Assembly (NCBI RefSeq): GCF_963664965.1
Contig: NZ_OY761823.1
Span: 3,653,031 to 3,717,030, forward strand
Length of the DNA: 64,000 bases
Origin: an uncultured Pseudodesulfovibrio sp.
GTDB lineage: Bacteria > Desulfobacterota > Desulfovibrionia > Desulfovibrionales > Desulfovibrionaceae
Reading direction: 5' to 3'
In this document: positions 7,079-53,057 of the stretch, in pieces
Position numbering within the stretch: position 1 is the first letter of the stretch
How the letters are laid out: every line of letters starts with the position of its first letter
Program-made: the position numbers and the translations under genes
Notes under the pieces: model-generated
Told to the model about the DNA's origin: nothing
The model's input: only the letters and a program-made list of their open reading frames with translations
Databases searched by the model: none

Positions 7079-9226
7079 CTAGCCGCGCAGAATGATTCTG
7101 GCATCTGCAATGGCCAAACCTTTTTCCCAAGCAAACACGGGATTGAGGTCGACTTCCGCAATATCGCGCAGTTCGTTCACCAACTGCGAAATGACGCAGG
7201 CGGTTTCGGCAAGGGCTTCCAGATCGCAGGGCTTGGTACCCCGGGCACCCTGAAGCATTCCCAATCCCTTGATTTCACGAATCATGCTTCGGCAGGAAGG
7301 CATGTTCACCGGAGCCACCCTGAAGGCAACGTCCTTCAGGATTTCCACAAAAATACCGCCCAGACCGAACATCACTGTCGGACCGAAGGTGTTGTCATGG
7401 CTGGAACCGATGATGCACTCGACTCCACCGGGAAGCATGGTGGTCATCATGACGCCGAATATGTCGGCATCGGATTTGTATCTGCGACCGTTCTTCACCA
7501 ACTGCTCGAAGGCTTCGCGGGCCTTGTCTTCGGAGTCGATGTTCAGGGCCACGCCACCGGCATCGGTCTTGTGCAGGATGTCGGGAGAAACGATTTTCAT
7601 GACGACCTTGCCGCCGATATTCCTGTAGAATTCGGCTGCTTCGTCAGCGGTTGTGGCCAGATAATCTTCCGTGAGATCAAGGCCGTAGCAGCGAAGCACG
7701 TCTCTTGCCTCGGTTTCGACAAGGCTGGTGCGACCGGAATCCTTGACGGCTTTCAGGATGGCCTCGGCCTTTTCCTTGCGGTCGGCAGGCATGTCCGGCA
7801 GCTCTTCTCCGGCCTCTTCCTTCAGGGACTTCTTGAGGTCGCTGTAGTTGGAAAGGAGACCCATGGTACGGACCGCGGCATCCACTTCTCCGAAAACCGG
7901 AACACCGTTTTCACTGATGTATTCCAGGCATTCGGGGCGTTGCGGTGCGTAGATGGAATGCATGACAACAGGCTTGTCGCTTTCGGCAATCTTCTGGGTC
8001 ATGCTCTTGGCAACGTCCATTTCCAGCACCTTGAATTCCTCGGACAGGTCGGCATAGCCGCCATAGAGACCGACGATGAGGATGCCGTCCACATCCGGGT
8101 CCTTCAGGAGCACGTCCAGACAACGGTCAAACACCCACATATCCGCTTCAGGAGTTCCAGCCAGATCGACCGGGTTCTTGATGGGGCAATGCGGCATGAG
8201 GATTTCTTTCAGCTTGGACTGGGTGGCGTCGGAAAGAACCGGCGCTTCGAGATCGAACTTTTCAGCGAAGTCGGTTGCCATGACACCGTGACCGCCACCA
8301 TCAGTCAGAATGGCAATGCGCTTGCCCTTGGCAGGCTTGCACTTGGAGAATGCCTCAGCGGCATCAAGCAACTGGCCGGGGCTGTCCACCCGGATGATAC
8401 CGGCCTGCTTGAGGGCGGCATCAAAGATCTTCTCACTTCCGGCGAGGGAACCGGTATGGGAGGCAGCAGCACGGGCACCGGCTGCACTGCGACCGATCTT
8501 GATCGCGGCAATTGGTGTCTTGGCAGCCGTTCTCTTGGCGGCCTCGATAAACTTGCGGCCATCTTCCTCGCTCTCGACACGCAACCCTTCCATGTACAGG
8601 AGCAGGACCTTGGTGTTGTCGTCGGTTTCAATGTATTCCACAAAGTCGTGGAAGCGCATGTCCATCTGGTTGCCGATGGTTGCCCAGCAGCTGTAACCAA
8701 GGTTTCTGGCCTTGGCATTGAAGTTGATGTCAATGCCGAAGTTGCCGCTCTGGAGCACCAGACTCATGGGGCCGGAAGCCAGATCGATGATACTGGCGTT
8801 CATGCTCTTGGCGGCACTGTATGTACCCATGCAGTTCGGACCCTGCACGCGCATGTTACCCTTGCGGGCGATTTCGAGCATCTTGCGTTCAAGTTCTTTT
8901 CCTTCAGGGCCGACTTCACCAAAGCCGGTGGAAACGACGATGGCGCACTTGACGCCCTTCTCCACGCACTGCTCCATGACGGGCAGGATGAATTTCGGGG
9001 CGATGGCGAGGATGGCAAGATCCACATCACCGGGCACCGAAAGGATGTCAGGATACGTGGTATGACCGAACAGTTCGCCGCCGGAACGGGAAACAAGATA
9101 TATGTCCCCTTCAAATTTGTTTTCAACCAGGCTCTTTGCTGTCCAATAACCGTACTTCTTCGAATTGGAGGAAGCGCCGATCAGGGCAACGCTCTTGGGT
9201 TGAAAAAGAGGAACCAGATCACTCAT
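7079..9226 (-). CDS. Acyl-CoA synthetase, NDP-forming (fused alpha-beta)
   Basis: A 715-residue fused acyl-CoA:ADP ligase that interconverts acyl-CoA, ADP and phosphate with the free acid, CoA and ATP. The N-terminal CoA-binding domain starts PKSVALIGASSN; the phosphorylated His is expected in SHTGSLAGS near residue 255; the C-terminal ATP-grasp domain contains VVMKIVSPDILHKTDAGGV near residue 550. AAGGAG supports the start at 9226 rather than an upstream Met. It follows the ferredoxin oxidoreductase subunit genes, so it most likely works toward ATP, using the acyl-CoA they make. Fermentative and syntrophic amino-acid users carry this pairing. Confidence 0.92.
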   Translation of the reverse strand: MSDLVPLFQPKSVALIGASSNSKKYGYWTAKSLVENKFEGDIYLVSRSGGELFGHTTYPDILSVPGDVDLAILAIAPKFILPVMEQCVEKGVKCAIVVSTGFGEVGPEGKELERKMLEIARKGNMRVQGPNCMGTYSAAKSMNASIIDLASGPMSLVLQSGNFGIDINFNAKARNLGYSCWATIGNQMDMRFHDFVEYIETDDNTKVLLLYMEGLRVESEEDGRKFIEAAKRTAAKTPIAAIKIGRSAAGARAAASHTGSLAGSEKIFDAALKQAGIIRVDSPGQLLDAAEAFSKCKPAKGKRIAILTDGGGHGVMATDFAEKFDLEAPVLSDATQSKLKEILMPHCPIKNPVDLAGTPEADMWVFDRCLDVLLKDPDVDGILIVGLYGGYADLSEEFKVLEMDVAKSMTQKIAESDKPVVMHSIYAPQRPECLEYISENGVPVFGEVDAAVRTMGLLSNYSDLKKSLKEEAGEELPDMPADRKEKAEAILKAVKDSGRTSLVETEARDVLRCYGLDLTEDYLATTADEAAEFYRNIGGKVVMKIVSPDILHKTDAGGVALNIDSEDKAREAFEQLVKNGRRYKSDADIFGVMMTTMLPGGVECIIGSSHDNTFGPTVMFGLGGIFVEILKDVAFRVAPVNMPSCRSMIREIKGLGMLQGARGTKPCDLEALAETACVISQLVNELRDIAEVDLNPVFAWEKGLAIADARIILRG

Positions 9227-27090: not shown

Positions 27091-29129
27091 ATGATGAAAC
27101 GCCTTACGTCTGCTCCGGGCAAGTACCTCGTACTCGTACCCATTCTCTTCTTTGTCGTACTCCACTTCTGGCAACTCCCGAGTTTCGACCAAAAGCCGGC
27201 CAACAGGGAACATGGCATAGGCCATCGCCTGATGACCACGGTTGACGCATACTTTTTCATCCGCCTTGCAGACGACCTGCTCAAAGACCAATACACGACT
27301 CTTGACTCCGTGCGTCCTACCGCGCGTCCTTTCCCGCCTCCGGCACTCTCTTCCATGGCAGCTTCCATCGTGCGTGCAACCGGCATCCCCCTTGCCGATG
27401 TAGCTTTTTTCCTGCCCCCCATGCTTGCCATTCTGATGATTCCACTGATGTGGGTATGGTCACGCCGCATTTTCCCAGACGACAAACTCGGAGCCGTGAT
27501 CGCCAGTTCGGCCGTTTCCATCAACTATGCATTCTACACACGAACCACGCTCGGAAGTTCGATACGGACGCCCTCAATATAGTCCTGTTCTGGGCCATCG
27601 GATTCCTGTTGTATGAATTCACCCGCCGCTCTGGAAAAGACAGATTCCTCTATCTGGGACTCGCGTTGCTCTCTCTTTTCGGCCTTGGGTACTGGTGGTT
27701 TCCTGCCGGATTGCCACTCGGACTGATCATGTTTTTCTTCCTCGGGTGCTCAATCATGCTTCCGTCTCCCAAACGGGACAAATGGCTCAAAGGCGTTATC
27801 CTTGGCGGTGCCGCAGTGGGCGGCGTCATCCTCGTACTGGCCGGTTTCACATCCGTCCTCCCCAAGGTCATAAACGACCTGTTGTCGCCCTACATGCAAC
27901 ATCTGACGCTCATTCAAGGAGAAACGAAATCCCTTTTCCCGGCCATGGGTAAAACCATCGCCGAGCTTCAATCCCTTGATTGGAAAACCACCATGAAATG
28001 GATTGCAGGATCATGGTTCGTGCCCATCATCGCTGTCGCAGGCTTACTCGTATTGGTACGCAGGGAAAGGCGTACGCTCTTTTTCGTACTCCTGCCCTGT
28101 CTATTCTTCGGAATCATGTCCTTTGAAGGACTCCGTTTTATCATGTTCCTTGCCCCCGGCATCGCCTTGGGCATCGCCGCCTTTGCTCTTGAAATTGTCC
28201 GTCCAGTAGCATTTTCACTCTTTGACCGCGCATCAGCGGCAACTGCAATGGCCGTTGCCGCGGCCGTTATTCTTATCGCTCCCGGCACCGTCCATTGCAT
28301 GAGCTATGGGCTCCGGGCCAGCTTTGACGGCAATATGGTGCTCGTAGCACAGGAAGTGAACAAAAAAGCAGGCAAATCCGCATTCGTATGGAACTGGTGG
28401 GGACCGGGATACATGATCGAGAACTACAGCCAACGAAAAGCCTTCATTGACGGCGGGCTTCAGGAACCACAACGATCATGGATCGCAGCGGTACCGTTGG
28501 CGACTCACAACTATACACTGGCACGGAACTGGATTCGCTTCTTTGCGAAGAATCCCATGGCCATTACGTATTTCTCCCGTCTGCTGAAAGACACGGAAAA
28601 AGCGACTGCATTTTTGCTGGAAGCATTGAAAGACAAGAACAAGCTGTCAGAAGTTTTGGAAAAATACGGTCTGCCGAAAACAAAAAGAAACTGGTCAAAA
28701 TTCCTGTTCCCGGAAACGGAAGTCTACCTTGTTCTACTCAGCGACATGCTGACCCACGGGTCGTGGCTGCCCATCGGCAAGTACGTCCCCGGCGGACCGG
28801 GCATGACCAAACGTTCTCCTTTTTACGCCATCCCCAACGAAAAAGTCATGGTGAACACTGAAAGAGGACAGCTCCTGCTTCCAGAAGGCCGCCAGCTTCC
28901 CATGAGCCGCTTTTATATCATCAGGCCCAACGAGTTGCGGCACGACGTTTTCAAACAATCAGGAGTCGTAGTGATCGGCGTATCCGGAACGGATTACGTC
29001 ATATACATGGATGAGGACCACCTCAACACATTGGCCCTGCACCTGCTCTTCGTCTCCCCGGACAAGACGCCGGGATTCACTCCTGTCCGATACAATCCCT
29101 TTGTGGGTGGAGCTTGGAGAGTCGACTAA
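27091..29129 (+). pseudogene. STT3/PglB-type oligosaccharyltransferase, interrupted by a frameshift
   Basis: Encodes the membrane enzyme that transfers a lipid-linked glycan to Asn in N-X-S/T. The first part (27091-27582, 163 codons) has the loop motif TVDAYFF (Asp52) and ends abruptly; the second frame picks up at about 27556 and runs to 29129 with KFDTDALN, many membrane segments and the catalytic WNWWGPGYMIENY near residue 433, equivalent to WWDYG. Restoring one A in GGAAG (27553-27557) joins them into GKFDTDALN and gives about 679 residues, near PglB length. The break falls exactly in the metal-site motif. It may be a true mutation, a sequencing error, or rarely a programmed shift. Confidence 0.85.
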
Positions 29130-31478: not shown

Positions 31479-32714
31479 ATGCCGGTCTTCAAGTACAAGG
31501 CAGCCTCAAGCGGAGGAAAGAAAAAAAGCGACATCATTGATGCCGCCAGCCGCACACAAGCCGCACGCAAACTCCGGGAGCAGGGCCTTTTCCCGCTGGA
31601 AATCACGCAGGTCAAAGCCAAAGGAACCGGCAACTCACCCTCCAGCCCCAAATTTTCCCTTAATCAGTTACGCCGGGTTCCGCGGGACGCCCTCGCCTCC
31701 ACCATACGCCAGTTGGCCACCTTGCTGAACGCAAGCATGCCGCTGGACAAGGCCCTGAACGCCATCATCAAGGGAGAAGGGAAGCAGGATGAACTGCAAC
31801 GCATCATGACCGAAGTACGAGAAACGGTCCGGGAAGGCGGCGACCTCGCCACGGCTTTTTCAAAACACCCCAACGTATTCAACACCACGTTCATCACCAT
31901 GATCCGCGCCGGAGAAAACTCCGGCACACTGGACATCGTCATGGAGAGACTGGCCGATCATATCGACCAGCAGTTGGCGTTACGGCGAAAAGTCCAGGCC
32001 ACCATGGCCTATCCCGTTCTCATGATGATCGTCGGCGTCTGCGTCGTCATCTTCCTGTTGTCCTTTGTCGTGCCGAAAGTCACGGAAATATTCTTTGACA
32101 TGGAAAGGGCACTTCCCACGCCCACGCGCATTCTCATCACGGTCAGCGATCTCATGAGAAAAAGCTGGGACATCCTGCTGCTCATCGGATTGGCCCTCGG
32201 CTACGGAGGCTACAAGGCCGTGAAGACGCCCAAAGGCAAGGCTATATTCGACGACCTGCTCCTCAACACTCCCGTCCTCGGCGACCTCATCAAGCAACTC
32301 GCGGTCGGCAGGTTTGCCAAGACCTTCGGCATGCTTCTGAAGAACGGCGTTTCTTTGGTCAGTGCGCTGGAAATAGTCAAGAGCGCATCGGGCAACGAGG
32401 CCATGAAAGCTGTAATCGAAGAGATGCATCATGACGTACAGGAAGGCAAACCCTTGACCGGCCCCCTTGAATCGTCATCCATTTTCCAGCATGCAACCGT
32501 CCAGATGATCGCGGCAGGCGAACAAAGCGGGAGGCTTGATGAGCTCCTGCTCATCGTTGCCGACGACTGCGAGAGCAAGGTCAACTCGCGGCTCCAGATG
32601 CTCACCTCCCTGATGGAACCCGTCATGATCCTGATCCTTGGCGGAATGGTCGGCTTCGTAGTCCTTGCGATCATGTTGCCGATCTTCGAAATGAGCAACC
32701 TCGTCGGCGGATAA
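31479..32714 (+). CDS. gspF: Type II secretion/pilus inner-membrane platform protein GspF
   Basis: A 411-residue polytopic protein with the two T2SSF repeats of the GspF/PilC family. It opens with MPVFKYKAASSGGKK, and both repeats carry the Glu-rich F-domain signatures (FNTTFITMIRAGENSGTL near residue 145 and VQMIAAGEQSGRLDELL near 345). Three membrane segments are visible, the last near the C terminus. It forms the cytoplasmic platform with GspE. It lies between glycosyltransferase genes, 28 kb from gspD, gspE and gspN at the window's right end, so the secretion locus is split or this belongs to another pilus-like machine. Confidence 0.9.
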   Translation: MPVFKYKAASSGGKKKSDIIDAASRTQAARKLREQGLFPLEITQVKAKGTGNSPSSPKFSLNQLRRVPRDALASTIRQLATLLNASMPLDKALNAIIKGEGKQDELQRIMTEVRETVREGGDLATAFSKHPNVFNTTFITMIRAGENSGTLDIVMERLADHIDQQLALRRKVQATMAYPVLMMIVGVCVVIFLLSFVVPKVTEIFFDMERALPTPTRILITVSDLMRKSWDILLLIGLALGYGGYKAVKTPKGKAIFDDLLLNTPVLGDLIKQLAVGRFAKTFGMLLKNGVSLVSALEIVKSASGNEAMKAVIEEMHHDVQEGKPLTGPLESSSIFQHATVQMIAAGEQSGRLDELLLIVADDCESKVNSRLQMLTSLMEPVMILILGGMVGFVVLAIMLPIFEMSNLVGG

Positions 32715-34022: not shown

Positions 34023-35426
34023 ATGATCCAGCCAGTCATACTCTGCGGCGGCAAAGGCAGTCGGCTCTGGCCCCTGTCCCGCGAGTTTTATCCGAAACAG
34101 TATCTCCGCATCGGCGAAGACCGAACCCTTTTCCAGGAAACCGTATTGCGGACAAACGGTTTTGACGAAGTGCGTCCACCAGTCGCCATCTGCAATACCG
34201 AGCATCGTTTTTTCGTGGCCGAGCAACTCCAAACGCTGGGAATCAAGGGCGAAATAATCCTTGAACCGATTGGAAGAAACACGGCCCCAGCCATCGCCAT
34301 CGGAGCACTGATGCACAAGGATGACGACCCACTGCTGTTAGTCATTCCTTCGGATCATGTGATCAAGAATGTCGAGGCATTCGAAGCTGCCGTCAAGAAA
34401 GCCGCGCCATTGGCGGAAGATGGCTTCCTTGTGACTTTCGGCATCGTTCCGGACCGTCCGGAAACCGGATTCGGCTATCTGCGTAAAGGTGATTCCATCG
34501 GAGCCGGATTCAAGGTCGAGCGATTCGAGGAGAAACCGCCGCTCGATCTGGCCACGGAATATGTCACATCCGGCCAGCACTTCTGGAATAGCGGCATGTT
34601 CCTGTTCAAGGCGTCCGTCTACCTTTCCGAACTCGGCGCGCTGGCTCCCGAAATGTTGACAACCTGTGAAAAGGCATTGGCTGACAGTATTCAGGATCTC
34701 GACTTTGTCCGTCTCTGCCCCGAAGCCTTTGCACAGTGCCCGTCCGACTCAATCGACTACGCGGTCATGGAAAAGACCGACAAATGCGTCATGGTCAGCA
34801 TGGATGCGGACTGGAGCGACCTTGGCTCCTGGAGCGCCATGTATGACGCCAAGGACAAGGACCGGGACAATAACGTGCTCGTGGGTGACGTCATCGCTCT
34901 GGACACGAAGAACAGCTATCTCCATGCCGAAACCCGCCTTCTCGCCGCCGTCGGGCTGGACAACATCGTTGCCGTAGAAACAGCGGATACCATTTTCGTG
35001 GCTCCCAAGGACAAAACCCAGGACGTCAAGAAGCTGGTAGAGGAATTGTGTGATTCCGGACGGAGCGAAGCCATGTTCCACCGCAAGGTGTACCGCCCGT
35101 GGGGCGCTTACGAATGCACGGATCAGGATGAACGTTTCCAAGTAAAACGCATCACCGTGAAGCCGGGACAAATCTTGTCCCTTCAGAAACACCACCACAG
35201 ATCGGAACATTGGGTCGTGGTGAGTGGAACCGCCAAAATAGTCAACGGGGACAAGGAATTCATCCTGACTGAAGACCAGTCCACCTACATTCCCCTCGGA
35301 GCGATGCACCGATTGGAAAATCCGGGCAAGATACCGCTGAAACTGGTAGAAATCCAGACCGGCTCATACCTCGGCGAAGACGATATCGTTCGCTTTGAAG
35401 ACGTCTACGGACGGACAGAAGGATAA
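34023..35426 (+). CDS. manC: Mannose-1-phosphate guanylyltransferase / mannose-6-phosphate isomerase
   Basis: A 467-residue bifunctional enzyme making GDP-mannose. The nucleotidyltransferase domain opens LCGGKGSRLWPLSREFYPKQ, and DYAVMEKTDKCVMVSMDADWSDLG is family-typical. The C-terminal cupin domain (from about 355) holds LQKHHHRSEHWVVVSGTAKI, the metal site of the isomerase half. It heads the surface-polysaccharide operon and is followed after three bases by gmd, which uses its product. Confidence 0.95.
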   Translation: MIQPVILCGGKGSRLWPLSREFYPKQYLRIGEDRTLFQETVLRTNGFDEVRPPVAICNTEHRFFVAEQLQTLGIKGEIILEPIGRNTAPAIAIGALMHKDDDPLLLVIPSDHVIKNVEAFEAAVKKAAPLAEDGFLVTFGIVPDRPETGFGYLRKGDSIGAGFKVERFEEKPPLDLATEYVTSGQHFWNSGMFLFKASVYLSELGALAPEMLTTCEKALADSIQDLDFVRLCPEAFAQCPSDSIDYAVMEKTDKCVMVSMDADWSDLGSWSAMYDAKDKDRDNNVLVGDVIALDTKNSYLHAETRLLAAVGLDNIVAVETADTIFVAPKDKTQDVKKLVEELCDSGRSEAMFHRKVYRPWGAYECTDQDERFQVKRITVKPGQILSLQKHHHRSEHWVVVSGTAKIVNGDKEFILTEDQSTYIPLGAMHRLENPGKIPLKLVEIQTGSYLGEDDIVRFEDVYGRTEG

Positions 35427-35429
35427 TTC

Positions 35430-36518
35430 ATGACCAAGAAAGCACTTATCACGGGAATTACAGGACAGGACGGAGCCTACCTCGCTCGCCTGCTGCTGGA
35501 CAAGGGCTATGAGGTCCACGGCATCAAACGTCGGGCCTCACTGTTCAATACGGCAAGAATCGATGACATCTACGAAGGGCCTCACGCGGAAAACAAAAAG
35601 TTCTTCCTGCACTATGGCGACCTGTCTGATTCATCCAACCTGATCCGCCTCGTCCAGCAGATTCAACCCGACGAAGTGTACAACCTCGCAGCCCAGAGCC
35701 ACGTCGCAGTGTCCTTTGAGAGCCCGGAATACACTGCCGACGTAACAGGCCTCGGCACCCTGCGCCTCCTTGAGGCCATCCGCATCGCCGGACTCGAAGC
35801 ACATACCCGCTTCTACCAGGCGTCGACGTCGGAACTCTACGGACTGGTACAGGAGACACCCCAAACGGAAAGCACCCCGTTCTATCCCCGTTCTCCCTAC
35901 GCCGTTGCCAAGCTGTATTCCTACTGGATTTGCGTCAACTACAGGGAAGCCTACGGCATGTATGCCTGCAACGGCATCCTGTTCAACCACGAATCCCCGG
36001 TTCGCGGCGAGACCTTTGTCACCCGAAAAATCACCCGTGCGCTGGCCCGCATCAAGCTCGGCCTGCAAGACACGCTGTATCTGGGCAATATGAACGCATT
36101 GCGAGACTGGGGACACGCCCGGGATTACGTACAAATGCAGTGGCTCATGCTGCAACAGGACGCTCCGGTGGACTATGTCATCGCCACAGGCGAACAACAC
36201 TCTGTCCGGGAATTCGTGGAAGCCACAGCTACCGACCTCGGCATCAGTATCGAATGGAAAGGCAAAGCCGAAAACGAAAAGGGTTATGACTCAGCCACCG
36301 GAAAGATGATCGTGGCCGTGGACCCGAGCTACTATCGTCCCACCGAAGTCGAGACCCTGCTAGGCGACCCTTCAAAGGCCAAGAACGAGCTGGGCTGGGA
36401 ACCCCGGATTTCGTTCAGCGAACTGGTCCGCGAAATGGTCCGGGAAGACCTGCGCGAGGCCGAACGCGAGGCAATGTGCCGCCGCAATGGATTTGAAGTC
36501 AACCTGCCGCAGGAGTAA
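35430..36518 (+). CDS. gmd: GDP-mannose 4,6-dehydratase
   Basis: A 362-residue short-chain dehydrogenase/reductase that converts GDP-mannose to GDP-4-keto-6-deoxymannose. The NADP motif [11 protein letters not shown] is at residues 8-18, and catalytic Tyr/Lys are in [33 protein letters not shown] and [10 protein letters not shown] are characteristic. It is tightly packed between manC and fcl, so the product goes to GDP-L-fucose. Confidence 0.96.
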
Positions 36519-36523
36519 TTTGA

Positions 36524-37456
36524 ATGATTTTAGCCCCTTCTGACAGAATTTATATTGCCGGACACCGAGGACTAGTCGGTTCCGCCATCGCCCGCAGACT
36601 GACCAAGGACGCTTGCGACAATCTTGTTCTCCGCACCAGCAGTGAGCTGGACCTGCGGGAACAGGCCGATGTACGCACCTTTTTCGAAGAAGAAAAACCC
36701 GACTACGTGTTTCTCGCGGCAGCCCGCGTCGGCGGCATCCACGCCAACAACACCTATCCGGCAGACTTCATCCGGGACAACCTCCAGATTCAGACCAACA
36801 TCATTGACGCCGCCTATCGATCCGGCGTCAAGAAACTCCTGTTCCTGGGATCGTCATGCATTTATCCCAAATTCGCTCCGCAACCCATGCCCGAAGACTG
36901 CCTGCTGACCAGCGAACTGGAGCCCACCAACGAATGCTACGCCCTCGCAAAGATCGCAGGGCTGAAGATGTGTGCGGCCTACCGACGGCAATACGGATTC
37001 AACGCCATCAGCGCCATGCCTACCAACCTCTATGGCCCAGGCGACAATTTCGATTTGGAGAACTCACACGTCCTTCCGGCATTGCTCCGAAAATTCCATG
37101 AAGCCAAGGAATCCGGTGCGGAACATGTGGTCGTCTGGGGGACAGGAACCCCCCGCCGCGAATTTTTGCACGTGGACGATCTCGCCGACGCCTGTGTTCA
37201 CTTGATGCGGACCTACGAAGAGGAACAGTGGGTCAACGTCGGTGTCGGCGAAGACATCTCCATCGGGGAACTGGCCCAACTCGTGGCTAAGGTCGTCGGC
37301 TACACCGGAAAGATACAATACGACACGACCAAACCGGATGGAACGCCGAAAAAACTGCTGGATGTCGGCAAAATCAATTCACTCGGCTGGAAGGCGAAAA
37401 TCGACTTGAAAGAAGGCATCAGCGAAACGTATCGACATTTCTGCACGGAGAGGTAG
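36524..37456 (+). CDS. fcl: GDP-L-fucose synthase
   Basis: A 310-residue epimerase/reductase completing GDP-L-fucose. The NADP motif is [10 protein letters not shown], followed by the family-specific [18 protein letters not shown], the [15 protein letters not shown] active-site block, and the catalytic Tyr/Lys of [15 protein letters not shown] lies eight bases before the start. With manC and gmd it supplies L-fucose for the exported glycan. Confidence 0.96.
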
Positions 37457-37541: not shown

Positions 37542-40500
37542 ATGTCTGCCCCAATCAAGTTCTTTCACGCACAGAAATATTTGGACATCAATGAAGCCCG
37601 TCTGACTCATTTGGCGAGCTTGGGGTTGAATGTCGAAAATAAAACAATTCTGGAACTTGGAGCGGGCGTTGGCGACCTGTCACCTTTTTTTATGGACCAC
37701 GCGAAAAAGATGACAATCGTCGAAGGAAGGCAGGAAAACGTCGCGAAAATCAAAAAACGGTACCCCAAAACCCAGTACCCCAATGTGAAGATCATCCAAA
37801 TGGATCTCACCAACCCGACGGAATCGGATATCCCCCCCCATGACATCGTCTTTGCTTACGGGCTGCTCTACCATTTGAACGACCCACTCTCTTTTTTGAC
37901 TTGGGTCTCGTCCATTACGACCGAAACACTGCTGCTTGAGACCTGCGTTACCCCACGCGGGAAAGAGATCAATCTTGTCGATGAAGATTCTGGCGATGCC
38001 ACACAGGCTCTTACCGGAGAAGCATGCAGACCGGGCCGGGAATTGATATACGAAAAGCTCACAGAACTTTTCCCCTATGTATACCTTCCCAAAACCCAAC
38101 CAAACCACTTTCAATTCCCGACAGACTGGACGACAGACCACAACGGCACTCTGACGCGAGCCATTTACGTCGCATCTCAAAAAAAGATAACCAACTCAAA
38201 GCTTACGCAAAAATTTCTTTCTCAACAGTTGCCGCTCCCCGTCCTGCATTCCACGGAAAGGCCGCGTGAAACACAAATAAATCCCTCCGTAAAAAAATCT
38301 GGAAAAAACATGATTTCCTATTCACAAAACTTTGAAGATGTCATTCTCAACCGCATTTTCAAACATAAAAGAAATGGGTTTTATATTGATGTCGGAGCTC
38401 ACGATCCAAACGAATTGTCCGTCACCAAACATTTTTACGAAAAGGGTTGGAACGGAATCAATATTGAACCCATCCCACGAAGCTATCAGCGACTCAAAGA
38501 AGCCCGCCCCCGCGATATCAACCTGAATGTCGCAATTGGACAAGCAGAGACGCATATGTCTTTCTACGTTGTCGTCGATCAAAACCATGACAAAACGGAT
38601 GTCAGCGCGTTTTCTTCATCGAATCTTGAAGAAGTCCAGGAGACATGCCGCAAGCATACGGATGAATTTGGCAGAGAACTCCAATACGAAGAAATTTCGG
38701 TAAAAACACAACCATTGGCAGACATATGTGACCAATTCTGCCCAGATTTCATAGATTTTCTCAAAATCGACGTAGAGGGAGCCGAAGCTGAAGTCTTAAA
38801 AAGCTGCGACTTCGAACGCTATCGCCCTACCGTGGTTCTGCTTGAGGCAAAAAAGACCTACACCAACCCCATCACCGATCAAGTCGAAGTATATCAGGAC
38901 TGGGATTCCTTCGATCCTATCATCCAAGACGCCGGTTATGAATTCGTCTATTTCGATGGACTGAACAGATACTATCTCAGGAAGGAGTCCCTCTCGCTGA
39001 AACACCGTTTCGATGTACCGCTTTGCATGTATGATCGCTTCATCACCGAGGCCCATGGCAAAGCTATCGAAAACGGCAATCAATGGGAAAAACGTGCGAA
39101 CGAACTCACGACCAAGGTGACGGAACAAACTCACCATTTCAATGCCGAGATCGAGAAAGCCGATAAGGAATTGCAACGGCTTCAAGCCGACATACAGGCT
39201 CTCCGCAATGAAAAAAGAGCTTTGGAGAAAGAGAAAGAAGCCGACATACAGGCTCTCCGCAACGAGAAAAAGGCTTTGGGAAAAGAGAAGGAAGCCGCCT
39301 TGGCCGCGAACCTTCAGTTGACCCAAAACCTGACAAGGCAAAAAGAACAAAACGCCAAGCTCACCCGGAAAAACCAAAAAGAGCGGGAAGCGCACGGCAA
39401 GGCCGCTACGCGACTCGTCAACCACTGTGCTGCTGTTGCCAGATGTGCCGAAGAACAATTCGACAGGCATTTTCAACTCGCGATGGGGATGCATGCTTGG
39501 CAAAATGCATTCGATACCTGTCCGATTCCCAACCTGCTCCTTCCGAAAATACCCACACCGGCCATTCCGGATTCCCCGGCAATCCTCAAGGAACCATTAC
39601 CGGTAATCCCCTCTTCGGACGACTCGGTTTCGGCTCAGACTCCCCCGGCGGAAAAAACCGCCCCTGCTGTCGTGTACCCATACGGTTCACTCAGACGATA
39701 TCCCGATCTTACAGGCAAAAGAAAAGCCGAAGGAGGGAGCCGCCTTTCCGGAAAGGTTCGCAATTCCCAAGCGGGCAAACCACTCGTCACAGTTGTCACG
39801 ACTGTTTACAACGGAGTGAAGCACCTTGAGCAAGCCATGCGCTCGATTTTTAATCAATCGTATGAGAACATCGAATACATCGTCATCGACGCCGCTTCCA
39901 CAGACGGAACGCTCGATGTGATAAAAGCCTGCGAAGACCGCGTGGACTATTTCATCTCAGAACCGGATGAAGGAATATACTCCGGCATGAACAAGGGGCT
40001 TTCCCTTGCTTCCGGAGAATTCGCCATCGTTCTCAATGCGGACGATTATTATACTGAGGATGCCATTGCAAAACTCGTAAACAAGGCCCTTGCCGAAAAA
40101 GCCGACATCACGGCTGCACACTCAAAAAATATCGACCCGTCCGGTAACCGGGTGGAGGGCAAACCCGGCGGCCTTTCCCGCTCGACCTGGACCCCCTTTG
40201 CCTACATAGCATGCCCGCTCAAGCACGAAACCATGTTGGTAAAAAGGCATGTGTACGAAGAGGTGGGCCTCTATGACGAAAGCATACGAATCTGTGCGGA
40301 CTGGGTCTGGATGGCCACAGCATACGACACGATGAAGCTCAATGTTTCCATCGTGGATGAGGAATTGCTGTTCTTCCGAAAAATCGGTGTCTCCCAAAGT
40401 GCTGCCCTGGCCGAACGCCACGCCGAGGAACGCTTGCAAATATACCCCCGCTTCTTCCCGGGAATCAATGAACAGGATCTTCAAAAACTCAAATGGGTCG

Positions 40501-40625
40501 GCGGTATTAAAGATCAATTCGTCGAAGAGCTCATCCGCAACAACCCAGACTGCGACAATCTTCATGCCGCCTTGAAAGCCAAGGATTCATGGAAATACGC
40601 TACACGTTGCGACATAGCCAACTAG
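37542..40625 (+). CDS. Fusion protein: methyltransferase, FkbM methyltransferase, coiled coil, GT2 glycosyltransferase
   Basis: A 1027-residue protein with four regions. Residues 1-215 are a class I SAM methyltransferase (motif ILELGAGVGDLSPFF near 36). Residues 255-480 are an FkbM methyltransferase (FYIDVGAHDPNELSVT near 280; FLKIDVEGAEAEVL near 406). Residues 515-640 are Glu/Lys/Gln-rich coiled coil containing an 18-residue tandem duplication. After a Pro-rich linker, residues 745-1000 are a GT2 transferase (VTVVTTVYNGVKHL, NADDYY). It lies between GDP-fucose synthesis and wzm/wzt. Two methyltransferases plus a coiled coil recall the chain-terminating, length-measuring protein WbdD, although no kinase domain is present. 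A soluble, possibly membrane-associated role in glycan capping is inferred. Confidence 0.88.
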   Translation: MSAPIKFFHAQKYLDINEARLTHLASLGLNVENKTILELGAGVGDLSPFFMDHAKKMTIVEGRQENVAKIKKRYPKTQYPNVKIIQMDLTNPTESDIPPHDIVFAYGLLYHLNDPLSFLTWVSSITTETLLLETCVTPRGKEINLVDEDSGDATQALTGEACRPGRELIYEKLTELFPYVYLPKTQPNHFQFPTDWTTDHNGTLTRAIYVASQKKITNSKLTQKFLSQQLPLPVLHSTERPRETQINPSVKKSGKNMISYSQNFEDVILNRIFKHKRNGFYIDVGAHDPNELSVTKHFYEKGWNGINIEPIPRSYQRLKEARPRDINLNVAIGQAETHMSFYVVVDQNHDKTDVSAFSSSNLEEVQETCRKHTDEFGRELQYEEISVKTQPLADICDQFCPDFIDFLKIDVEGAEAEVLKSCDFERYRPTVVLLEAKKTYTNPITDQVEVYQDWDSFDPIIQDAGYEFVYFDGLNRYYLRKESLSLKHRFDVPLCMYDRFITEAHGKAIENGNQWEKRANELTTKVTEQTHHFNAEIEKADKELQRLQADIQALRNEKRALEKEKEADIQALRNEKKALGKEKEAALAANLQLTQNLTRQKEQNAKLTRKNQKEREAHGKAATRLVNHCAAVARCAEEQFDRHFQLAMGMHAWQNAFDTCPIPNLLLPKIPTPAIPDSPAILKEPLPVIPSSDDSVSAQTPPAEKTAPAVVYPYGSLRRYPDLTGKRKAEGGSRLSGKVRNSQAGKPLVTVVTTVYNGVKHLEQAMRSIFNQSYENIEYIVIDAASTDGTLDVIKACEDRVDYFISEPDEGIYSGMNKGLSLASGEFAIVLNADDYYTEDAIAKLVNKALAEKADITAAHSKNIDPSGNRVEGKPGGLSRSTWTPFAYIACPLKHETMLVKRHVYEEVGLYDESIRICADWVWMATAYDTMKLNVSIVDEELLFFRKIGVSQSAALAERHAEERLQIYPRFFPGINEQDLQKLKWVGGIKDQFVEELIRNNPDCDNLHAALKAKDSWKYATRCDIAN
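39186..39293 (+). repeat. 54-bp tandem duplication inside the coiled coil
   Basis: Two adjacent 54-bp copies (39186-39239 and 39240-39293) encode residues 549-566 and 567-584 of the fusion protein, both beginning ADIQALRNEK. They differ at a handful of bases. Eighteen residues is five turns of a 3.6-residue helix, so the duplication keeps the coil continuous and in frame. Confidence 0.9.
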
Positions 40626-40651
40626 CCGCCAGCACTAAAAAAGAGACTCCA

Positions 40652-42190
40652 ATGGTAAAAATATCCGTACATACACCAGTCTACAATGCATCGGAACATC
40701 TCGCCGAATGTCTGGATTCCATACTGTCGCAGACCCTTTCAGATTTTGAAGTGATATGCGTCAACGACGGAAGTACAGATGACTCTCTGGACATCCTCAA
40801 TGCCTACGCTTGCAAGGACGCCCGGATCAAAGTCTTCGACCAGGGCAGGAATACCGGCACCCTGCAAGCCAGAAAGCGCATCTTCGAAGAAGCCACAGGC
40901 GAATACATGGCTTTCATCGACGCAGATGACCTGGCTCAGCCGGAAATGTTGGAGGAGTTGTATGGGAAAGCGATTGAAACCGATTCGGACTTCGTACAGT
41001 GCGGCGCAACGATCCTGGATAAAGACAATACTCTTTCCAAAGACATCTTCGAACAATATAATAGCTATTTCAGCAACGTGACCCGCTTCGCCGCGACAGG
41101 CGAGGATATCTTCCAAGCATATGGGAAAAAAATAAAAAACAATTTCTGGGTCAGCCTGTTCAAACGGGATGTATACAAGGCAATCATTCCCCACATCCCC
41201 GACGCCCCCATTCCCCACGGCAACGACAACATTCTCCTCTTCATGCTGATGTTTTTCTCAAAAAACTATACCTCACTGCACAAAAACCTCTACCGCTACA
41301 GGGCAAGCGGGACAACTTCGAACCTGACAATCCCCAGCCCGGGAAAAGCAGCAGCCCACATCGTCAGCCGAGGAAGGGTCATCAAACTCGCTCAAGACTT
41401 CCTGCTCACGCAAAATCCGGAGCAGGATCTCAAACAACCTCCTTTCTCAACCTTGAAAAACAATACGTTCGCCTACACGGTTCGTCTCATGGATCGCTGT
41501 CTCGAGACGCATCCCGAAGAGAAAGAACAGCTCCACTCCCTCTTGAGGGAGCACTTCGGTTCCATTGCCGAAGAACACCTTAGCGAACGCACTGAAAAAG
41601 GTTCCTTTGAGATTCAGCAAAAAATTGACACCATGGAACAGGAAGAAAAGCCAACGTTCCACCCCATTGAGGAGTTTGTGAACACTCCGGTCCTGCACAG
41701 AATCTACCGGACATTGCCTCGGCCTTTCAGAAAACTGCTCACCTGGATAAAATACAGCGTCCTCCTTCCCGTCGCCTATGGTCCGAGTACCGTTCGCGAC
41801 TATTGGGCCATACGGCAATCAGGATTGTTCCTTCCGGCCTACTATGAATACCAAAACCCGAGATTCAGGGAGTTGGGAGCATCCCCGATTTTTCATTACC
41901 TCAATCATGGCGCAAAAGAGGGAACCAACCCCAATCCGTTCTTTCACACGACCTGGTATCTGGACAATAATCCTGACGTCAAAAACAGTGACATGAATCC
42001 ACTCGTCCACTATGTCCGATATGGTTGGAAGGAAAGAAGGCAACCCGGTCCCGCATTCAAATTGGGAACCTACTATAAAAACCGACCGGACGTGCAGGAG
42101 TCTCGAATTGAACCGCTCCGGCATTTTCTTCTGTATGGCACCATTGAAGGCGGCACAGGAATCAAGCCCCCCAAACAGCAGTCTGCGTAA
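40652..42190 (+). CDS. GT2 glycosyltransferase with C-terminal NPDV/HY repeats
   Basis: A 512-residue protein. Residues 1-230 are a GT-A transferase (VKISVHTPVYNASEHL, NDGSTDDS, FIDADD near residue 90). Residues 400-500 hold three degenerate repeats of the form PLxHYxxxGxxE...FxxxYYxxNPDV (for example DNNPDVKNSD and NPLVHYVRYGWKE), a module I recall from other polysaccharide-locus proteins, function unknown. The start at 40652 is chosen because an upstream Met overlaps the preceding gene's end. It lies just before the ABC exporter genes. Confidence 0.85.
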   Translation: MVKISVHTPVYNASEHLAECLDSILSQTLSDFEVICVNDGSTDDSLDILNAYACKDARIKVFDQGRNTGTLQARKRIFEEATGEYMAFIDADDLAQPEMLEELYGKAIETDSDFVQCGATILDKDNTLSKDIFEQYNSYFSNVTRFAATGEDIFQAYGKKIKNNFWVSLFKRDVYKAIIPHIPDAPIPHGNDNILLFMLMFFSKNYTSLHKNLYRYRASGTTSNLTIPSPGKAAAHIVSRGRVIKLAQDFLLTQNPEQDLKQPPFSTLKNNTFAYTVRLMDRCLETHPEEKEQLHSLLREHFGSIAEEHLSERTEKGSFEIQQKIDTMEQEEKPTFHPIEEFVNTPVLHRIYRTLPRPFRKLLTWIKYSVLLPVAYGPSTVRDYWAIRQSGLFLPAYYEYQNPRFRELGASPIFHYLNHGAKEGTNPNPFFHTTWYLDNNPDVKNSDMNPLVHYVRYGWKERRQPGPAFKLGTYYKNRPDVQESRIEPLRHFLLYGTIEGGTGIKPPKQQSA

Positions 42191-42235
42191 GGGAAATCTT
42201 TCCTCCGTATGAAAACAACGAATGCCGAAGGAAAC

Positions 42236-42991
42236 ATGCTAAATCTTCTTCTTTTCAAATCAGCGGCCAACCTTCGCACCGAAGTCTCCCGCTACTATCT
42301 AAATTACCTCTGGTGGATCATTGAACCCATCCTGAGCATGGCGGTCTTTTATCTTGTTTTCGGCATCTTCCTGAACAGGGGGACGGAACACTATGTCGCC
42401 TTCCTGCTTGTCGGCCTTGCCGGCTGGAACTGGTTTGCCCGAAGCGTTCAGAACATTTCCACCAGCATCTACCAAGCGCGGGACCTGATGCAGTACATCA
42501 AAATCCCGAAATCTTTTTTTCCCCTTGAAATATTCCTGCAAGACGCTTTCAAAAACGCCTTTGTCGTGGCCCTGTTGCTGCTGTTCCTCATCGTGTACCC
42601 GACCCCGGTGTCAATCACATGGCTCGCGCTCCCGGTCATCATGGCTGTCCAGGCCCTGCTCATCCTTGCCACGGGAATGCTGTGTGCAGCGCTCATTCCC
42701 TTTGTGCAGGACCTGAAATTCATCGTATCCACGGCAATCCATTTGCTGTTTTTCGGATCGGGCGTTTTCTACCGCATCGAGGACGTCGTCCTTCCCAAGC
42801 ACCAGTTTTTGTTGCAACTGAACCCGGTCGTGGGGTTGCTCCGGGCGTACCGGGAGTCCCTGATCTACGCAACATGGCCCGATTGGATTTATCTGACCAA
42901 AGTCACGCTTGCTTCCGGCCTGTTGTTGTGCTGCGCCGTATGGCTCCTTCGCCGTTTTGATCGTGTTTACCCGAGGATATGCCAGCAATGA
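42236..42991 (+). CDS. wzm: ABC polysaccharide export permease
   Basis: A 251-residue ABC-2-type permease with six hydrophobic segments, opening with the cytoplasmic amphipathic LLLFKSAANLRTEVSRYYLN and YLWWIIEPILSM, and ending with PVVGLLRAYRESLI, as in Wzm/KpsM/RfbD proteins. It forms the membrane channel that moves lipid-linked polysaccharide across the inner membrane. GAAGGAA lies just before 42236; a Met at 42209 is an alternative start. Its stop overlaps the start of the ATPase gene. Confidence 0.9.
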   Translation: MLNLLLFKSAANLRTEVSRYYLNYLWWIIEPILSMAVFYLVFGIFLNRGTEHYVAFLLVGLAGWNWFARSVQNISTSIYQARDLMQYIKIPKSFFPLEIFLQDAFKNAFVVALLLLFLIVYPTPVSITWLALPVIMAVQALLILATGMLCAALIPFVQDLKFIVSTAIHLLFFGSGVFYRIEDVVLPKHQFLLQLNPVVGLLRAYRESLIYATWPDWIYLTKVTLASGLLLCCAVWLLRRFDRVYPRICQQ

Positions 42992-43692
42992 TGAACACCC
43001 CACTAATCACACTGGAAAATGTCGGCTGCCGATACAAGTATCGCAAAAGCCGTTTCAGCTTCGGCCACCACGATGCACTCAAAGATATCAATATGACCCT
43101 CCATCGGGGGGAAACTCTCGGCGTCATAGGCCGCAATGGCGCGGGAAAATCAACCCTGCTCCGACTGGTAGCCGGCATCATCGAACCGGACTTTGGACGA
43201 ATCATTACCCCGCAGCCCGTCACAGTATCCCTGCTTACGCTGCAAATCGGTTTTTCCAATGAACTCAGCGGGCGAGACAACGCCATTCTCGGCGCAATGC
43301 TTCTCGGGCATTCCAAAAAGGAAGCTCTGGAACGAGTTGAGGATATCAAGGATTTTTCTGAACTCGATACTTGGTTCGAAGAGCCGATAAAATTTTATTC
43401 ATCAGGCATGAGGGCAAGACTGGGCTTTGCCGTCGCCATAGAAATGTGCCCCGATGTGCTGCTCGTGGACGAAGTGCTTGGCGTGGGCGATGAGTCCTTT
43501 CGAAAAAAGTCGACCCGTGCCATGAAAGAAAAAATGAATTCCGACCAAACCGTACTCTTTGTCTCGCACAACCTGAACACGCTCAAGGAACTCTGTCCCC
43601 GGACCATGTACATAGAAAACGGCGTGACCAGAATGGTGGGAGAGACTGAAGACGTTATACAGCGATATCTGGACACCCTGAACCAGGGTTAA
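42988..43692 (+). CDS. wzt: ABC polysaccharide export ATPase, short form without carbohydrate-binding domain
   Basis: A 234-residue ATPase with Walker A GRNGAGKST, Q-loop LQIGFSNELSG, signature YSSGMRARLGF, Walker B LLVDEVLGVGD and switch HNL, all typical of Wzt/TagH. The protein ends directly after the nucleotide-binding domain, without the extra 150-residue domain that reads a terminal cap in O9a-type systems. The ATG at 42988 overlaps the wzm stop; a Met nine bases earlier is also possible. It energises export with wzm. Confidence 0.92.
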   Translation: MMNTPLITLENVGCRYKYRKSRFSFGHHDALKDINMTLHRGETLGVIGRNGAGKSTLLRLVAGIIEPDFGRIITPQPVTVSLLTLQIGFSNELSGRDNAILGAMLLGHSKKEALERVEDIKDFSELDTWFEEPIKFYSSGMRARLGFAVAIEMCPDVLLVDEVLGVGDESFRKKSTRAMKEKMNSDQTVLFVSHNLNTLKELCPRTMYIENGVTRMVGETEDVIQRYLDTLNQG

Positions 43693-51485: not shown

Positions 51486-53057
51486 TCACTGAGTTTTCTT
51501 GACCCATCCCTGAATTTGATACCCCCCCATGACCGAGTGGACTCTTTTGTCATAAATCAAGTCGTATGACTTTATGATATCAGGAAATTGCTTCCGTCTG
51601 AATCGTGGCGTCACCAAGAGAAGATCAAAATAACCAGCGGCAAACTTTTCATGTAACACTTTGGAGTAATTTTCTTGAGCAGCCCGAAACGCCTTCTCAT
51701 TGAAGGGAGTTAGTATCTTGAAATAGTACTGCCCCTGTCCAGCATCATAGACGGTCTTACCTTGCGTCATTAAAATATTGTTTAACAACCGGTGTGTATA
51801 AATCTTGTCGTGTTTTGCAATCAGCCCGGACACCTCATGCCATTCTTCTGAACGGTCCATGCTACACGACATGACTTTTGGTTTGAGTGAATTCCCATAA
51901 GCAAACAAAAGGATCAGTGTTAATGAAATATACGGCAATGTCCCCAAAAAGATATTGAACTTCTTGCTACCTCTATTCATATGACGCAACAGAAAATTGA
52001 TAGATGACCACAGGAAAAAGAATAAAAAGGTATGCGCTATATAAATATCCTTGTTGCCGCTATGCCACCCAATAACTCCTAAAAAGAAAACTAGTAAAAA
52101 AAACGAAACAAATGTGCAGTAATTCGGCTTTAAATCTCTAGCCCATGTGACAAGAGCCTTTACACTTCGAACCCGCAAGCCTCTCTGACGAGCAACAACC
52201 ATTCCCACAATGAGAACAGAAAGCAAAAGAGGCCACATATAGTGGAATACAAACCGATATACCTGAGGGAAAAATACAGAGGCATTAAAGTTAACCTTGG
52301 CATTCCCCGCCCAATAAATTCCATGTGAATTTTCCTGAAAAAATTCAAAAAAGAGTATTCCTGATACAACCAAAACAACAGACAAAACGCCGAAGCAAAC
52401 AGCCTTTCTCTTGCTTTTGTATAAAAAGTAGTAAGTTAGCAAAGGACCAAATCCGACAATAAAGTATTGCTTTGTGAAATAAGCAAGGGCAATCAAGAAA
52501 ACCCCAAAGAACATCGACCTATTTGAAAAATGGAAAATATATGGGAGTGTGATTCCGGCAACCATAAAGAGATATCCCAAGTTCCCCGGCTTAGATCCCA
52601 TTTCATTTGAGGACGTCGTCAGAAAGGTAAAAACCGTAACAGCTATGGCCAATGAAAGAGCAAAAGGGATGGAGTCTTTTTTCAGGACAAACAATAAATA
52701 AAGCAAAGTAAGCCCAGAGGCTCCCCACGCAAGCGACCTGAGTATTATCGCTATATCTGAAAACGTATCTGCATCTACAAAAACAGCCCCTAGATAATAA
52801 TATATTGGGGCATAGGTATTAATTAATCGCGGAAAGGTTTGAAGGGAAAAAGGGTTTTCTCCCATGGCAAGTTGACGGGCATAAAGGACATCAGCCGTCT
52901 CGCGACAGTGAAATGGCCGATCCAGAAAAATGCTCATCTTACAATAAGACAACACTTCAATCAGGACAAAGCCGCAACAGATAAGCAGCAACGCGCAAAC
53001 GAGTATTTGAAGCAAAGAGAAATCGTCACTCAAAGAAGCGTCATTTTTATTTAACAC
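51486..53057 (-). CDS. Polytopic membrane protein, putative GT-C glycosyltransferase, AT-rich
   Basis: A 523-residue protein with about eleven hydrophobic segments, starting at GTG after AAGGGCGA. The first loop holds HCRETADVLYARQLAMGENPF and NTYAPIYYYLGA, resembling the acidic periplasmic loop of GT39-like transferases, and a soluble C-terminal region of about 130 residues follows. Base composition is visibly richer in A and T than in all neighbours and the strand is opposite, so acquisition by transfer is likely. No specific family is certain. It starts ten bases after the end of a small upstream gene. Confidence 0.65.
   Translation of the reverse strand: MLNKNDASLSDDFSLLQILVCALLLICCGFVLIEVLSYCKMSIFLDRPFHCRETADVLYARQLAMGENPFSLQTFPRLINTYAPIYYYLGAVFVDADTFSDIAIILRSLAWGASGLTLLYLLFVLKKDSIPFALSLAIAVTVFTFLTTSSNEMGSKPGNLGYLFMVAGITLPYIFHFSNRSMFFGVFLIALAYFTKQYFIVGFGPLLTYYFLYKSKRKAVCFGVLSVVLVVSGILFFEFFQENSHGIYWAGNAKVNFNASVFFPQVYRFVFHYMWPLLLSVLIVGMVVARQRGLRVRSVKALVTWARDLKPNYCTFVSFFLLVFFLGVIGWHSGNKDIYIAHTFLFFFLWSSINFLLRHMNRGSKKFNIFLGTLPYISLTLILLFAYGNSLKPKVMSCSMDRSEEWHEVSGLIAKHDKIYTHRLLNNILMTQGKTVYDAGQGQYYFKILTPFNEKAFRAAQENYSKVLHEKFAAGYFDLLLVTPRFRRKQFPDIIKSYDLIYDKRVHSVMGGYQIQGWVKKTQ

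Follow-up and report, generated by a model that had tools for sequence, protein, structure and literature searches.

The window, i.e., the whole stretch of 64,000 nucleotides from an uncultured Pseudodesulfovibrio sp. that was analyzed, contains a gene for a fusion protein that probably caps and measures a surface polysaccharide. Two methyltransferase domains, a long helix and a GT2 glycosyltransferase domain are joined in one chain. By analogy with characterized systems, and with slightly better than even confidence, we regard the protein as a single-chain enzyme for glycan assembly that works on the cap-and-ruler principle. Its product would leave through the adjoining Wzm/Wzt transporter, and the gene set resembles that of a capping system, except that the exporter is without a cap reader. 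The features are as follows (positions of the window, basis in brackets).

34023 to 35426, plus strand: ManC-type GDP-mannose synthesis enzyme (Pfam)
35430 to 36518, plus strand: Gmd, GDP-mannose 4,6-dehydratase (Pfam)
36524 to 37456, plus strand: Fcl-type epimerase/reductase of the GDP-fucose route (Pfam)
37542 to 40625, plus strand: fusion protein of 1027 amino acids in the order methyltransferase, FkbM, helix, linker, GT2 (ORF calls, Pfam, AlphaFold2)
37542 to 38231, plus strand: N-terminal class I methyltransferase domain, residues 1-230, ELGAGVGD at 38 (Pfam, homologues)
38304 to 39041, plus strand: FkbM methyltransferase domain, residues 255-500, DVGAHDP at 283, KIDVEG at 408 (Pfam PF05050, conserved columns, pLDDT)
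39048 to 39461, plus strand: continuous predicted helix, residues 503-640, about 20 nm if extended (AlphaFold2, periodicity)
39184 to 39297, plus strand: 54-bp tandem repeat in the helix, 2.1 copies, 18-residue unit (repeat search)
39522 to 39776, plus strand: proline-rich linker, residues 661-745 (sequence, low pLDDT)
39780 to 40496, plus strand: GT2 glycosyltransferase domain, residues about 747-985, NADD at 832 (Pfam, NCBIfam)
40589 to 42190, plus strand: GT2 with C-terminal NPDV-type repeats, recognized by eye; the true start may be 40652 (Pfam)
42209 to 42991, plus strand: Wzm-type ABC permease (Pfam ABC2_membrane; 61% identical, tblastn, in the same-genus locus L037)
42979 to 43692, plus strand: Wzt-type ABC ATPase, 237 amino acids, without Wzt_C (Pfam, NCBIfam; 63% identical, tblastn, in L037)

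The reading frame of the fusion protein starts with ATG and contains zero internal stops. Pfam analysis revealed class I methyltransferase models at residues 28-127 (Methyltransf_25 at 36-115, E 8.7e-7), an FkbM match (PF05050) at residues 283-468 with an E value of 6e-27, and a GT2 match (PF00535) at residues 750-868 with an E value of 1e-24. The best NCBIfam glycosyltransferase model for the GT2 domain was WcaE, at 64 bits versus a cut-off of 369. For the FkbM domain the curated cut-offs were exceeded by both models (PF05050, 95.2 versus 22.7 bits; TIGR01444, 79.8 versus 37.7 bits), and D283, G285, D410, E412 and G413 were invariant in an alignment of 44 rows; by cut-offs and motifs the domain belongs to the FkbM methyltransferases.

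The structure was predicted with AlphaFold2 as a single chain from an alignment of 43 relatives, which span FkbM and the beginning of the helix. No rows supported the N-terminal and GT2 domains, and the linker and both outer domains were of low confidence. The pLDDT of the FkbM domain was mostly above 90, with a dip at residues 431-450. The Foldseek matches were general class I methyltransferase folds, and a profile of FkbM plus helix had zero matches among PDB sequences at 0.01.

The model contained a single uninterrupted helix from residue 503 to 640, i.e., 138 residues or about 205 Å. A structure prediction had been set as a check for a long continuous coil in the first-pass annotation, and such a helix was indeed found; the domains and their order in the 1027-residue protein were also borne out (Pfam, AlphaFold2), while the coil is about 138 residues long and not 125. 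The mean pLDDT per ten residues was 91-96 up to residue 570, 86 at residues 571-580, 72-74 to residue 610 and 54-66 to residue 640. The hydrophobic period of residues 510-660 was 3.54, which was matched by none of 500 shuffles. For residues 560-640 the period was 3.58, near that of a plain straight helix, and this part may also be a single unpaired helix, which that value would fit too. A single-chain model would be expected to give the same outcome for a coiled coil and for a lone charged helix; Glu and Lys make up 26% of residues 520-640, and Ala is the commonest residue. The 18-residue unit of the tandem repeat equals 11+7, a step that is tolerated by coiled-coil packing. An amphipathic stretch at residues 619-642 was no more pronounced than another within the coil and gives no support to a membrane-binding helix. 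With the putative cap enzymes and the putative polymerase at opposite ends of a long predicted coil, the modelled protein has the anatomy, as distinct from the activity, of a cap-and-ruler enzyme.

Next, the protein was compared with known capping systems. According to excerpts of PMC11231755, ORF6 of Klebsiella pneumoniae O7 likewise has an N-terminal methyltransferase, a central coil and a C-terminal GT2 and is encoded in a wzm/wzt cluster; its methyltransferase, coil and GT2 modules can terminate and polymerize in one chain, and the terminator lies at the end of the coil, far from the glycosyltransferases. It differs in possessing a cryptic kinase, a CBM-like domain and a second GT2 module, where the window protein has a second methyltransferase (FkbM) and a single GT2. 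The same excerpts describe WbbB (O12 antigen), which also unites cap enzyme, ruler and polymerase in one chain, but caps with Kdo through a glycosyltransferase and not by methylation. Thus, the principle of a one-chain cap, ruler and polymerase is already known from O7 ORF6 and O12 WbbB (PMC11231755, in the parts available), and the description of the window protein as an undescribed case of it had to be given up. What makes the window protein a variant is that it has two methyltransferases, that its putative cap enzyme is FkbM, and that the reader is missing.

WbdD of Escherichia coli O9a has a coil of roughly 20 nm with the methyltransferase at its end, as is predicted for the window protein, and its O8 homologue is described as methyltransferase-only (parts of PMC3482155 and PMC5082667); the WbdD coil holds the cap enzymes about 200 Å from the polymerase (PMC5082667, in part). 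The window protein differs in having no kinase, no detected sequence kinship and no cap reader found, and its glycosyltransferase is fused, whereas that of the WbdD system is separate (WbdA). The WbdD-like layout that had been proposed is nevertheless present, i.e., a helix of WbdD-like length, a glycosyltransferase opposite the methyltransferases and an ABC exporter close by. The further idea that the second methyltransferase takes the place of the kinase is no more than an analogy: a relative in the same genus (G005) has no N-terminal methyltransferase in its chain, and elsewhere this enzyme is a separate gene. WsaE of Geobacillus stearothermophilus, the gene of which overlaps wzt, resembles the window protein in combining a capping O-methyltransferase with glycosyltransferases in one chain; it has two glycosyltransferase domains and one methyltransferase, and the excerpts of PMC2943079 do not mention a ruler. 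At least 80% of the fusion protein in one place was found in 0 of 72,556 plasmid records, and among the matches listed for 98 relatives, with up to 8 candidates scored per genome, there were partial matches alone, so that within these collections the full four-part order was seen only in the window protein.

The genes for ManC, Gmd and Fcl lie upstream of the fusion gene. The downstream order is GT2, Wzm, Wzt, a GtrII-type protein, a 732-residue protein with zero Pfam matches, GT2, MBOAT and an AlgX-like protein. A single gene (40589-42190) separates the fusion gene from wzm, and not the larger distance of "three genes before" the exporter that had been reported; its repeat part has a 43% match in L037. 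The Wzt of the window consists of the ATPase domain only (Pfam), and the genome contained zero matches to Wzt_C (PF14524) at E <= 0.001, in agreement with the earlier statement that the cap-reading domain is lacking. A transporter ATPase with Wzt_C, one of the marks of a cap-and-ruler system, is absent from the window. The best NCBIfam model for this Wzt was a galactan exporter ATPase (171.6 bits, below the cut-off of 400).

A scan of named genomes was used to analyze the distribution of the FkbM-plus-helix arrangement. It yielded at least 590 pattern matches with 342 relatives among them, and the best 80 of the 342 loci were analyzed. A Wzt with Wzt_C was encoded at most 1.1 kb upstream of FkbM-plus-helix in 34 of these best 80 of 342 loci, and the wzt stop was at most 30 bp away from the start of the FkbM domain in 28 of the 80. 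Thirty-two of the 34 Wzt_C neighbours were recognized by phmmer, and two (L052 and L065) were added by Pfam; one of the 34 (L112) had no Wzm in the DNA examined. The remaining 46 of the 80 best relatives, several of them on short contigs, had no Wzt_C-bearing Wzt within 1.1 kb; at two loci (L057 and L064) a Wzt with a Wzt_C match was present beyond this distance, that of L064 slightly below the cut-off. Genes for FkbM plus a coil-like stretch were found behind wzt in Massilia, Duganella, Bordetella petrii, Pseudomonas oryzihabitans and others. These genes share the FkbM subfamily and the coil-like stretch with the window, but in contrast to it they are often free-standing and accompanied by a transporter with Wzt_C. 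In a Nitrosospira MAG (L075) FkbM, a 220-residue coil-like stretch, GT4 and GT2 form one chain of 1767 residues, which is encoded directly after a cap-reading Wzt. Dickeya undicola (L100) and Paraburkholderia rhizosphaerae (L054) have FkbM plus a tail together with a short Wzt and Gmd, outside the clade of the window; the tail is periodic in the former and not in the latter (63 of 200 shuffles as high). FkbM-plus-helix is thus a recurrent unit.

A coil-like stretch of at least 40 residues followed FkbM at 56 of the 80 loci, compared with 79 of 674 long ORFs other than these and with none of 132 controls (Wzt, Wzm and GT2). With the same threshold the detector called 61 of 86 real tails (the 80 loci, the window and five other loci), and since 32 of the 86 shuffled tails also passed, the coil-like call rests largely on composition. 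Periodicity (at most 10 of 200 shuffles as high) was found in 38 of 74 testable tails, where about 4 were expected. Coil-like tails were present at 27 of the 32 loci with an adjacent Wzt_C detected by phmmer and at 29 of the 48 others (Fisher p 0.026), a weak association within the survey.

Two loci combine the parts of the window with a cap reader. At the Bradyrhizobium cytisi locus (L052) the gene for a homologue of the N-terminal methyltransferase (45% identical) precedes wzm, which is followed by another FkbM gene, a wzt with Wzt_C and a gene that joins FkbM, a long coil-like stretch and GT4 in one chain; next come several GT2 genes and those for Gmd and Fcl, and ManC is encoded upstream on the opposite strand. 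In a Burkholderiaceae MAG (L065) the methyltransferase homologue is 37% identical, and it is accompanied by a Wzm match, Wzt with Wzt_C, an FkbM-coil-GT4 chain, GT2 matches, Gmd and Fcl. Both loci thus share with the window the N-terminal methyltransferase homologue, a chain of FkbM, coil and glycosyltransferase, Wzm/Wzt, Gmd and Fcl, and both differ from it in that the methyltransferase is a separate gene, the fused glycosyltransferase is a GT4, and Wzt carries Wzt_C. To judge from gene content, the methyltransferase pair of the window here belongs to a cluster that bears every mark of a capping system; having been chosen via FkbM, the two loci give no frequency for the pairing.

The pairing was also seen from the side of the N-terminal methyltransferase. 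Its homologues were 41-51% identical and some were free-standing; close homologues occurred in 6 of 395 genomes of the phylum, including that of the window, and none were found in viral contigs or plasmids. In five of the six (the window, G148, G167, G384 and G448) FkbM was present in the same chain or cluster, in G167 as a fusion of the homologue to another FkbM type; on the 5.4-kb contig of G412 no FkbM was seen by eye. Because FkbM genes are common in glycan clusters, this pairing is suggestive only.

A tree of 85 FkbM domains places the window together with G005, from the same genus (locus L037), and G148, from another family of the same phylum (locus L046), with a support of 96/91. This grouping is fair rather than firm, as the bootstrap was unsettled, the branch of G005 is long and the letter composition of G148 is unusual. 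All three transporters adjoining FkbM are devoid of Wzt_C; the G005 genome had no Wzt_C match, and that of G148 encodes one Wzt_C protein elsewhere. The G005 chain consists of FkbM, a coil-like stretch, GT2, an NKWYS domain and a second FkbM match; its Pro-free stretch has about 107 residues versus 168 in the window, and its tail shows no clear periodicity (equalled by 39 of 200 shuffles). Besides the permease and a double-domain ATPase, the G148 cluster encodes ManC, Gmd, Fcl, the N-terminal methyltransferase as a stand-alone protein, a radical-SAM protein and an FkbM protein with a coil-like tail of 125 residues; the order ManC, Gmd, Fcl, methyltransferase is common to it and the window.

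In the cap-and-ruler mechanism that we propose, the C-terminal GT2 domain would be positioned near the membrane and act on a lipid-linked, probably deoxyhexose-containing chain, and the helix, probably a multi-stranded coiled coil, would keep the two methyltransferases, FkbM and N-terminal, at a distance of about 20 nm. Elongation would stop when the growing non-reducing end reaches the methyltransferases and is O-methylated, and the finished chain would leave through the adjoining Wzm/Wzt, in this clade without a cap reader borne by Wzt. Enzyme activity, oligomeric state, terminal methylation, length measurement and sugar identity are what we infer for this system, and the reader would have been lost rather than never present. 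The mechanism is favoured because the domain order resembles that of O7 ORF6 and the helix length is near that of the WbdD spacer (both as far as the excerpts describe them), because FkbM-plus-helix recurs directly behind cap-reading Wzt proteins among the best 80 of 342 loci, and because L052, L065, L075, G005 and G148 hold comparable sets; it gains further weight from the N-terminal methyltransferase homologues in L052 and L065. It is weakened by the composition-driven coil detector, by periodicity in 38 of 74 tails and by the 46 of 80 loci without a nearby Wzt_C. The main evidence against the full model is the absence of Wzt_C here, because every terminated example in the available text of PMC11231755 has a Wzt with a cap-reading CBM.

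That absence would fit another explanation, which we consider possible but rather unlikely, namely that the helix only oligomerizes or tethers the enzymes, that methyl groups are placed along the chain, and that length results from competition between the polymerase and a cap-blind transporter. The length of galactan-type O antigens is thought to be set by competition of this kind, and the best model match of the window Wzt, below its cut-off, is indeed a galactan exporter ATPase. In addition, G005 has a similar transporter but a different methyltransferase set, which makes an exporter reading one particular cap less likely. However, FkbM-plus-helix often lies directly behind a cap-reading Wzt (best 80 of 342 loci), and L052 and L065 have the same methyltransferase pair together with a reader; both observations point to an origin as a terminator.

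It is improbable that the fusion protein serves another glycan than the adjacent transporter and that their adjacency reflects a mixed polysaccharide island. The island also carries STT3/PglB-core, GtrII, MBOAT and AlgX-like genes, and some FkbM-plus-helix chains, among them those of L034 and L069, are without an ABC exporter in the DNA examined. On the other hand, a second species of the genus (G005) shows a similar succession of fusion gene, GT2, wzm, wzt and GT2, and in G148, L052 and L065 an ABC exporter likewise accompanies the same parts. A genuine homologue of WbdD that makes a methyl-phosphate cap would share the general layout of methyltransferase, second catalytic domain and coil beside wzm/wzt, but is very improbable and was rejected: Pfam and NCBIfam detected no kinase model, the second domain is FkbM, the PDB sequence matches did not include WbdD (which may not be among the sequences searched, so that remote kinship is possible), and an O7-like cryptic kinase, which would evade the models, would need an unassigned stretch of a size that is not left.

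A literature search revealed no paper that joins FkbM with coiled coil, O antigen and ABC transporter, with Wzm, or with polysaccharide chain length, the 2019 terminator census (Mann, Kimber and Whitfield, Glycobiology) lying outside the search; in a broader search FkbM was named, among the matches listed, solely in a flagellin-modification paper. Tentatively, and at clearly less than even confidence, FkbM-plus-coil may represent a widespread, experimentally unexamined class of methyl-cap terminators, of which the clade of the window would measure without reading, with the ruler fused to the polymerase glycosyltransferase and, here, to a second methyltransferase, possibly resulting in a multiply methylated deoxyhexose cap. 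The clade would then be a natural set with a coil but no reader that, compared with close relatives that have the reader, could test whether a ruler alone measures length. The position of FkbM-plus-helix behind a cap-reading Wzt gives a testable function to numerous proteins for which FkbM family methyltransferase is the sole annotation.

The FkbM chain of the Nitrosospira MAG (locus L075, 2497-7800; 1767 aa) was closer than the window protein to the canonical scheme of cap enzyme, coiled-coil ruler and polymerase, with an exporter containing a cap-reading Wzt. It comprises FkbM, a coil-like stretch of 220 residues, the segment SWRITWPLR, and GT4 and GT2 domains, and it is encoded directly downstream of a cap-reading Wzt. 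The segment, in the general form SWR(L/V/I)TxPLR, marks the end of the coil-like stretch and recurred in the tails of L075 and of three further FkbM-plus-helix loci (L034, L035 and L036); it is possibly a membrane-binding helix. In G005, which belongs to the same genus as the window, the chain (L037, 9004-12636; about 1170-1210 aa) has the order FkbM, coil-like stretch, GT2, NKWYS capsule domain and a second FkbM match.

The transporter ATPase of G148, from another family of the same phylum, has 521 aa (L046, 3630-5195) and contains a tandem pair of ATPase domains, a build that seems unusual for a Wzt-type protein.

Two further genes lie in the glycan island of the window:

27450-29129, gene for a possible oligosaccharyltransferase, whose product carries an STT3/PglB core domain
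31479-32714, type II secretion F-type (GspF) gene, surrounded by glycan genes

The G+C content was mostly 0.49-0.57 across window positions 28000-51000, and it dipped to 0.45 at 38000-38999 and to 0.40 at 52000-52999; this would fit with the acquisition of parts of the region.

In the Bradyrhizobium cytisi cluster (L052), a third methyltransferase, again FkbM, is encoded between wzm and wzt (7576-8547), and, thus, the cap may involve up to three methyl transfers.
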